A stretch of DNA of 64,000 nt. It comes from Larkinella terrae. Lineage in GTDB: Bacteria > Bacteroidota > Bacteroidia > Cytophagales > Spirosomataceae. Under the pieces are notes generated by a model that worked only from the letters and a program-made list of their open reading frames with translations, was not told where the DNA came from and made no database searches. The stretch's first letter is position 1. Each line of letters starts with the position of its first letter. Both the position numbers and the translations under genes were made by a program. The stretch spans positions 301,814-365,813 of the forward strand of contig NZ_WJXZ01000001.1 in NCBI RefSeq assembly GCF_009668025.1, written 5' to 3'. Below, in pieces: positions 37,445-39,054 of the stretch.

Positions 37445-38335
37445 TTAACGTGAAAGAGTAAATGAACGGGTAAATTTCCGACCATCGCTCAGCCGAATGC
37501 TATAGAAGTAGGTTCCGGTTGGTAAATTTTTATTGTTATCACGGCCATCCCAATCATTCTGATAGTTTTTCACTTCGTAAATCACTGTACCATTGCGATC
37601 GAATATAGTTATTTCTGCAGTTAGCTTACCTAAATTTCGAACTATAAATTTATCATTCAGACCATCACCATTCGGCGAAAAACCTTCTGGTATTACCAGT
37701 TCACCTTCCGATTCCGGATTTGTTCCAGTGCACAGTTCAGCCAACGATTTGATAGTCAGATTTTCAAATACACCGCCAGCTTTTGCGACATATGTATCAT
37801 AATCAAATTCGGTCGTATTTTTCTTTAAAACTATTTCACTAAGCCCAGTTACGGGAAAAGATTTGTCATCATTCCATTCAATAACCGTCCCGGTTTTCGA
37901 CTTTAAATCAACCAAATCAAACTGCAGCGTGGCAACCGAAAGCCAACTTGTTCCTACCGATGCGGCATTATGTTCCGAACCACTATAAATAATATTGAGC
38001 GAAACGATTCCTTTGGTTGCCCGTTCGGCAGACCCATTTAGCGATAAAGGATTGTAATTAAGGCTGGGATTCGACCCTGTGCTGGTAAAATTGACCTGAT
38101 CAACGATGGCCGGATTTTTAATAAGCTGGGCGTCGTACGAAAAACGAAAATTAGCGTTTCCCATCAGAAATGAACTACTTTCATCGTGCGCTTTTACCTC
38201 AACGGCGACGAGCAATTTCTGACTGGAACAATCCACTTTTTTAAGTTGTAAACGCACATCGAAACGACCATTTTGAGCTTTGGCAATGAGTGTCGAACAA
38301 ACCGCTAATAGAAAAAGAAACCGTTTCATATTCAT
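37445..38335 (-). CDS. Secreted cohesin-like protein with gliding-motility (T9SS type B) C-terminal domain
   Basis: A 296-residue protein with a signal peptide ending at AKAQ. Residues about 20-145 form a beta-rich domain (GRFDVRLQLKKVDC; FLMGNANFRFSYDAQLI; WLSVATLQFDLVD) resembling cohesin/Big-type sandwiches. The C-terminal 85 residues (IPEGFSPNGDGLNDKFIVRN to FYSIRLSDGRKFTRSF) are the gliding-motility-associated CHU_C/type B sorting domain used by the type IX secretion system. It is therefore predicted to be exported across the outer membrane. The upstream gene at 38414-39054 encodes a paralogue of the N-terminal domain with a different, dockerin-like tail. The function is unknown; adhesion or assembly with its paralogue is possible. 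Confidence 0.82.
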   Translation of the reverse strand: MNMKRFLFLLAVCSTLIAKAQNGRFDVRLQLKKVDCSSQKLLVAVEVKAHDESSSFLMGNANFRFSYDAQLIKNPAIVDQVNFTSTGSNPSLNYNPLSLNGSAERATKGIVSLNIIYSGSEHNAASVGTSWLSVATLQFDLVDLKSKTGTVIEWNDDKSFPVTGLSEIVLKKNTTEFDYDTYVAKAGGVFENLTIKSLAELCTGTNPESEGELVIPEGFSPNGDGLNDKFIVRNLGKLTAEITIFDRNGTVIYEVKNYQNDWDGRDNNKNLPTGTYFYSIRLSDGRKFTRSFTLSR

Positions 38336-38373: not shown

Positions 38374-38410
38374 AAACAGCGGGCCAACATGAACCGTTGG
38401 CCCGCTGTTT
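38374..38410 (-). terminator. 15-bp perfect hairpin after the frameshifted cohesin-like gene
   Basis: AAACAGCGGGCCAAC (38374-38388) pairs perfectly with GTTGGCCCGCTGTTT (38396-38410) around a 7-nt loop. On the minus strand it starts three bases after the restored stop codon at 38414-38416 and 65 bases beyond the frameshifted stop at 38476. The placement supports the restored reading frame as the original gene end. Confidence 0.8.
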
Positions 38411-38413
38411 TCC

Positions 38414-39054
38414 TTAATGTGGTACTTTAGAATAGCGACCGTTATTCTTTTTCCACAACACGCTATCGGAGAAGTTCACATCCGCATCCATGTTGAAGTC
38501 ACCATACTTGTACTGATCGAAAATACCGCTTTCGTCCTTCCACAATTTGGAAAATCGGCGGGTTTATCGGTGTGCCATACAATCGGAAAGCAGTTATTCT
38601 GAATTAACTGGGTATTGACAATGTTGAACTGAATCGTCGTGGTCGTGATCCAGTTGGTTCCGACGAGTGCCGCACCGGTTCCTGAACCGCCATACGTGGT
38701 GTTCAGCGAAACCGTGCCTTTCGTGGGGCCGAAGGTGCTGCCGTTCAGATTCTGAACGCCGTAACGCGCATCACTGGCGGGCGCCTGACTGGAAAAATTT
38801 TCCTGCGTCAGAATGGTGGGGTTATTGATGATTCGCGGGTCGTAGTCGAACCGGTAATTGGCATCACCCATGAGAAACGTGCTGTCAGCGCTACTGGCTT
38901 TCACCTGCACGTTGATCACAGCTTTTCCGGTGTTGCAATCAATGGTTTTAACTAAAAAGCGGACGTGGAACCTTCCATGCTGCGCAAACGAAGTGCTTAC
39001 CAAAAACAGGAGAAGACCCACCAGGAGGTAGAATTTTTTTTTCATATTCATCAA
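38414..39054 (-). pseudogene. Cohesin-like secreted protein with dockerin-like tail, broken by a 1-base frameshift
   Basis: As written, the frame encodes 192 residues (38476-39054): signal peptide ending at TSFAQ, a domain clearly homologous to the N-terminal part of the downstream neighbour (GRFHVRFLVKTIDC; FLMGDANYRFDYDPRII), then an unlikely tail ending STWMRM. Adding one base to the run at 38551-38554 (four A here, T on the coding strand) opens a better frame continuing SKLWKDESGIFDQYKYGDF and then a calcium-loop pattern like dockerins (D-x-N-x-D-x-D-V-N-x-x-D), ending in NNGRYSKVPH at 38414. The repaired protein has 213 residues and ends beside a hairpin. This is either a true frameshift mutation or a sequencing error in a homopolymer. 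Confidence 0.72.

Follow-up and report, generated by a model that had tools for sequence, protein, structure and literature searches.

Two overlapping reading frames, a −1 direction that stays fixed across species, a downstream frame selected as protein and two predicted products are shared by programmed −1 frameshifting of the dnaX type and the locus analysed here. The locus differs from that type in that a strict heptamer is not conserved, a downstream structure was not found and the shift itself is a prediction; it also looks like an out-of-frame join of neighbouring genes and encodes a secreted protein. A second likeness is to corrective, or compensatory, frameshifting, in which a frame break in the DNA is offset during decoding and a full-length product is still made. 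According to the accessible parts of a 2016 recoding review (PMC5009743), most known occurrences of this class are mitochondrial, and few cases of conserved frameshifting are known in chromosomal genes of non-mobile-element origin; unlike the corrective class as described there, the present break is kept in seven species of a genus. The accessible sections of the GeneTack paper (PMC3711429) name Bacteroidetes once, in a count table. Our literature searches returned no paper on frameshifting in Larkinella and, judged by title, none on this gene under conserved programmed ribosomal frameshifting in Bacteroidetes; for Spirosoma, only a fucosidase review surfaced under frameshifting and only a xylanase paper under dockerin and cohesin.

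The encoded protein recalls two further systems. As in the cohesin-dockerin pairs of cellulosomes (PF00963, PF00404), a cohesin-like model is combined with a D-x-N-x-D-x-D-V-N-x-x-D loop, which occurs as two tandem copies in relatives; unlike the cellulosomal modules, the protein has no Pfam dockerin match, holds one full loop and a half, and stands in a T9SS context. Binding to PorP-like proteins is reported for T9SS type B proteins (PMC9143113, in the portion available), and here too the product of the downstream gene has a type B sorting domain, while PorP/SprF-like genes recognised by eye adjoin cohesin and type B genes in genus g5, that of Spirosoma profusum (G222), at L064:8380-9000 and L100:2450-3442. 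In contrast to type B systems, the frameshifted protein has no T9SS domain and the contig of the window has no PorP/SprF match.

By the window we mean the whole 64,000-nucleotide stretch of Larkinella terrae DNA that was analysed; the gene lies on its minus strand (Table 1). The four A residues at 38551-38554 of the plus strand are TTTT on the coding strand, and the frame one base back reads FSKLWKDESGIFDQYKYGDFNMDADVNFSDSVLWKKNNGRYSKVPH up to the stop at 38414, with the loop D-F-N-M-D-A-D-V-N-F-S-D inside this tail. A preliminary description of the DNA had pointed out both the run with its continuation and a dockerin-type loop, and both are present in the sequence. It had also spoken of an annotated frame with 27 altered residues at its end; the ORF exists and its end is altered, but the frame was the earlier reader's own, taken from a list of ORFs, and the altered residues number about 24. 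The hairpin that it described stands as well, with a perfect 15-bp stem and a 7-nt loop beginning 3 nt after the −1 stop; the 0-frame stop lies 62 nt upstream of the −1 stop and thus 65 nt from the hairpin. The name of terminator fits less well, as no T run follows the stem and a terminator scan based on T runs gave no call on it. In a strict scan of eight genomes, four had perfect stems of 13 to 15 pairs 3 to 8 nt past the −1 stop, and in the remaining four, the inverted repeats at this place are imperfect and were recognised only by eye. The 0-frame stop of L. knui falls 55 nt past the −1 stop, i.e. beyond the hairpin.

Table 1. Features of the frameshifted gene and its surroundings, in window coordinates.
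Feature	Position	Strand	Basis or content
0-frame ORF, ATG 39051 to TGA 38478-38476	38476..39051	-	signal peptide, cohesin-like domain and about 24 unconstrained residues
Signal peptide MNMKKKFYLLVGLLLFLVSTSFA	38983..39051	-	translation read by eye
Cohesin-like domain, about 145 residues	38551..38985	-	AlphaFold2 model and VIA-align comparison
Mapped shift site T_TTT_CCA (0-frame codons TTT CCA)	38548..38554	-	junction table, 8 genomes
Open stretch in frame −1 with the EF-hand tail, ending at TAA 38416-38414	38414..38563	-	translation, pN/pS
Single complete calcium-type loop DFNMDADVNFSD	38465..38500	-	−1-frame translation
Terminator-like 15-bp hairpin, 3 nt past the −1 stop	38374..38410	-	inverted-repeat scan
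Downstream paralogue, cohesin-like domain and T9SS type B sorting domain	37445..38335	-	profile matches

A protein search with the cohesin-like ORF covered 59 genomes, and the genus sample comprised nine Larkinella genomes including that of the window. Seven of the nine have the cohesin-like ORF in frame 0 and, after it, the EF-hand tail in frame −1. Of these carriers, six are separately assembled named species: L. rosea (G008), L. knui (G005), L. humicola (G003), L. punicea (G006), L. arboricola (G004) and L. soli (G007). The offset between the two frames, taken modulo 3, is 2 in all seven full tails (those of L. soli and of a remnant in genome G002 among them) and in the shorter tail of L. 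arboricola, where a further 54 nt are missing beside the junction and the −1 relation is still kept. Alignments with L. humicola, L. knui, L. punicea and L. rosea run on through the 'wrong' end of the 0 frame, to residue 189 or 190 of 191, at 81 to 84% identity, and those with L. arboricola and L. soli reach residues 171 and 164. The −1 stretch of L. soli is 382 aa long and is entered at the same Phe-Pro junction. As for the two remaining genomes, G001 has no tail and gives only paralogue-level matches (42% identity and weaker), and in G002 a deletion has removed the cohesin domain and brought the signal peptide directly up to LAIVWHPD. A search with the tail matched eight of the nine genomes, once in each, and at E<=0.01 none of the genus genomes yielded a second copy. 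An in-frame donor for gene conversion is therefore not seen, and gene conversion from such a copy was rejected.

Selection acts on the tail as a protein read in frame −1. Over 44 tail codons of the window, L. rosea, L. humicola, L. knui and L. punicea, pN/pS is 0.034 in this frame, whereas frames 0 and +1 of the same region in the same species give 4.4 and 3.9; the variable columns of frame −1 number 3, 2 and 29 at the three codon positions (third positions 29 of 34). Depending on the species set, the −1 value ranges from 0.034 to 0.059, being 0.058 with G002 and L. soli included, and frame 0 over the tail region is unconstrained at 2.2 to 4.4. We compared pairs of the 132-nt tail with neutral simulations (20000 runs per pair). 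The window and L. rosea differ by 18 nucleotides and 1 amino acid (neutral mean 11.6), L. humicola and L. knui by 12 and 0 (8.5), and L. punicea and L. soli by 26 and 2 (17.4); for each pair, none of the 20000 runs gave so few amino acid changes. In a 14-row domain tree, the first two pairs have no branch in common. The tail of G002 differs from that of L. punicea by 11 nucleotides and 6 amino acids (neutral mean 7.6), a result reached in 4422 of 20000 runs, as without selection. Loss of the upstream cohesin part thus goes with release of the tail from selection, in this single case. In the same pairs, pS of the 0-frame domain upstream is similar to that of the tail, so that the tail and the domain appear to have one history.

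These results bear on the proposal in the preliminary description that the gene is now inactivated or misread at a homopolymer. The break does sit at a short homopolymer, as a sequencing error or a recent pseudogene might, but the out-of-frame junction is common to seven of the nine genus genomes, six of them from separately assembled named species, and the tail is under strong purifying selection among the species that share it. A break shared so widely cannot be put down to an error of sequencing or to a mutation of recent date; we consider error and pseudogene ruled out by the seven genomes together with the selection test, and such an origin would be barely credible. Inactivation is contradicted further by the finding that the tail is released from selection only in G002, the sole genome without the cohesin part. 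In the comparison with homologues that the description had called for, the carriers keep the tail out of frame at a shared junction. Its other reading, that of a secreted protein with a cohesin-like domain and a dockerin-like EF-hand tail, is upheld as the protein seen by evolution, both by the −1-frame selection on the tail and by single ORFs in genus g51. In three g51 genomes, the matches to the cohesin-like N-terminus and to the tail fall at fitting positions in open frames of identical length (2173, 3002 and 1777 aa), indicating that a protein with both ends is a natural architecture.

The DNA of the tail could also have been kept for a reason other than its −1 peptide, namely as an antisense ORF, as an RNA element or by phase variation that is off in every sequenced strain. 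We regard this as very improbable. One antisense frame does show a low pN/pS, 0.10 to 0.16, yet its third positions are also the third positions of the tail codons, and all five species compared have stops in it. The window also has a 61-aa antisense ORF, but this lies in a different antisense frame, whose pN/pS is 2.0 to 2.9, and the L. soli version has a stop. Antisense coding was rejected on these grounds. For phase variation, there is no suitable repeat tract, and all seven intact copies are in the same −1 state.

The position of the shift could be mapped closely. In L. rosea, a −1-frame TGA stands directly 5′ of TTT TCC AAA and the conserved −1 peptide starts at AAA, which confines the shift to about three codons, T_TTT_CCA_AA. 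The intact sites read T_TTT_CCA in the window, L. rosea and L. punicea, T_TTC_CCA in L. humicola and L. knui, C_TTC_CCA in L. arboricola and T_TTC_CGA in L. soli. A T thus precedes TTY in six of the seven, where the Phe tRNA could re-pair on TTT; such re-pairing would be poor at the L. arboricola site. The strict X_XXY_YYZ heptamer is present in two of the seven only, those of L. humicola and L. knui. CCA accounts for 58 of 837 proline codons in 30 long ORFs of the window, but this rarity is weak evidence and may be incidental because the codon of the conserved −1 lysine begins with the final A of CCA. The similar U_UUC_CCG is markedly over-represented in enterobacterial genomes according to the accessible part of the recoding review (PMC5009743), which does not suggest a strong shifter, and we consider the site weak. 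Minimum-energy, pseudoknot-free folds downstream of the site have z values of −1.8 to +1.65 in the seven species, and no stimulatory structure stood out among them. Over the 60 nt upstream, z is −2.04 in L. knui, −1.96 in L. arboricola and −1.60 in L. soli, and +0.10 to −0.66 in the other four. A small hairpin of the CAGTT..AACTG type was noticed about 35 nt upstream in several species, two of which have z near −2. In the Bacteroidota species studied (Flavobacterium johnsoniae; PMC8710568, as far as the available text goes), Shine-Dalgarno sequences are seldom used.

The out-of-frame join has probably been kept because a fraction of ribosomes slips by −1 at TTY-CCA, with a cohesin-only and a tailed form as the outcome. 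The P-site tRNA-Phe would leave UUY and pair with the overlapping UUU while CCA, a rare proline codon, is still to be decoded in the A site; the slipped fraction would continue in frame −1 to give the cohesin-like domain with its tail, and the unslipped ribosomes would terminate soon after, leaving the cohesin-only form. As judged from the sequences, the locus is neither an error nor a dead gene; seven species of the genus have retained it as a trans-frame gene, for which a −1 slip is the most likely mode of decoding. Given a weak site and the lack of a conspicuous fold downstream, we infer, rather than observe, that the shift is made by the ribosome and not by RNA polymerase. Its efficiency, an origin in a single deletion and the role of the tail are inferred as well.

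Transcriptional slippage is the main rival. RNA polymerase stuttering in the T/C run would insert a base in some transcripts and give the same trans-frame protein, and a T run does abut a C run at all seven intact sites (T4C2, T4C2, T3C3, T3C3, T5C2, T2C3 and T4C2). These runs, the longest of which is five T, are far below the usual eight or more bases, and their lengths differ among species while the direction of the shift is constant; in the accessible sections of the GeneTack paper (PMC3711429), runs of eight or more are the usual case and paired shorter runs are also reported. On balance, we think slippage by the polymerase unlikely. Still less probable is a separate translation of the tail, by re-initiation or from an internal start in frame −1. 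Translational coupling would also make selection on the tail track the upstream gene as it does in G002, and six of the seven intact copies have an in-frame ATG for the Met of NMDADV. However, L. soli has CTG at that position, and a start there would leave the conserved KLWKDESGIFDQYRYGDF untranslated. No start near the junction is common to all: the Leu codon is TTG in the window, L. rosea, L. humicola and L. knui but CTC in L. punicea, none occurs in the first codons of L. soli, and in L. rosea the −1 stop is directly 5′ of the TTT. The product would also lack a signal peptide and presumably remain in the cell.

The ribosomal slip that we favour would act on what seems to be a fusion. At locus L064 of G207, a genome of genus g5, three genes stand in a row: one for a 518-aa cohesin-like protein, one for a 1010-aa protein with a two-loop EF-hand tail, and one for a protein with a cohesin-like domain and CHU_C. 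Judging by these matches, the Larkinella gene seems to be the N-terminus of the first joined to the C-terminus of the second, one base out of frame. The 382-aa stretch of L. soli is 55% identical to the 1010-aa protein over 371 columns and keeps the full two-loop end of the tail. Two tandem loops occur in L. soli and in relatives of other genera, and a motif scan found two-loop tails in G194 and G195; in the window, L. rosea, L. humicola, L. knui and L. punicea, only about the last 44 residues are kept and the first loop is halved. The motif scan of short-frame tail matches in the family genomes G023, G029 and G086 found no tail. In an ancestor of these Larkinella species, a deletion may thus have fused two neighbouring surface-protein genes, one base out of frame, so that the cohesin-like N-terminus comes from one of them and the EF-hand tail at the C-terminus from the other. 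The 14-row domain tree, in which a branch with support of 79/91, not strong, sets the seven Larkinella copies apart from the other rows, is compatible with one origin. The first gene of the Spirosoma group (L064:2732-4285) ends in CVP-CTERM, a putative sorting motif (NF058574, 22 bits, cut-off 19), and the EF-hand tail is in its place in the Larkinella join. The giant tail gene of G189 contains a long stretch of N, masked or unresolved, at about 1640-3138 of L065.

If the proposal is right, the locus would add a conserved chromosomal case of frameshifting, seemingly born of an out-of-frame fusion of neighbouring genes, and would show a route by which programmed frameshifting arises, with the half-loss in G002 as a natural control. 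It would also mean that, in a Bacteroidota lineage, a plain Phe-Pro site can be enough even where no stimulator was detected downstream of it. An annotator who looks at one genome at a time will readily put such a break down to an error or a pseudogene.

The model of the cohesin-like domain (AlphaFold2, mean pLDDT 78) modestly resembles cohesins. When 999 Foldseek candidates were re-aligned by VIA-align, the 16 best rows were all cohesin, cohesin-dockerin or scaffoldin (best Z 8.8, rmsd 3.1, 119 aligned); non-cohesin rows start at Z 8.3, and the tool cautions that Z 7 to 8 is common. Foldseek alone gave no match to the model at E<=0.001, its first cohesin row being at rank 20 with E 0.05. Pfam had no match to the window ORF at E<=1, and hence no PF00963 above the cut-off, and a PDB sequence search with the cohesin-domain profile returned nothing at E<=5. 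The tail can be called dockerin-like by motif only and is not a confirmed dockerin. Pfam and NCBIfam gave no dockerin at E<=1 for the window tail, the −1 stretch of L. soli or gene 2 of L064; the window tail has a single complete loop besides half of the first one, rather than the two tandem calcium-binding repeats of about 22 residues of a dockerin, and the structure model of the L. soli tail has a pLDDT of 40. Its best match among solved sequences is 5n5p_B, a 'putative cellulosomal scaffoldin protein' (E 0.15), in a stretch that we take to be a dockerin.

The paralogue downstream matches PF13585 (CHU_C) at 79.3 bits against a cut-off of 27 and TIGR04131 at 70.1 bits against 35, as a T9SS type B protein does, and has a weak Cohesin match at 16.8 bits, below the cut-off of 24.1; the frameshifted protein has no T9SS domain match in Pfam or NCBIfam. 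A cohesin-like gene is also found downstream in the eight tail-bearing Larkinella genomes, and at all nine tail loci in a set of stretches from other genera (L062 to L070, read by eye except for L064, which was profile-scanned), the gene after the tail gene is cohesin-like and has a CHU_C-like end. This neighbourhood suggests that the tail may dock on the cohesin-like domain of the neighbour, which the T9SS would put on the surface. The role of the tail would then most likely be calcium-dependent docking on a cohesin-like partner such as the neighbouring type B protein. Against such a role, the window tail lacks half of the first loop, and in L. humicola the proposed partner has an internal stop, yet the tail is conserved there. 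We offer a broader scheme only as a tentative and rather doubtful possibility: the genus-wide −1 shift at an unassisted Phe-Pro site might fix the proportion between two surface proteins, one a cohesin-only cap and the other a cohesin with a docking tail that could chain or dock on the T9SS-anchored neighbour. This would amount to stoichiometry control in a non-cellulosomal cohesin-dockerin-like assembly, born from an out-of-frame fusion rescued by frameshifting.

The stop in the L. humicola paralogue (L075) is a TAA at about base 1750 of an otherwise intact coding sequence (SG*NPDADGELRIPEG); the same codon is TCA in L. punicea, and if the stop is real, the partner is truncated in L. humicola. 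The genome of the window has four PorP/SprF matches above the cut-off, all of them on other contigs.
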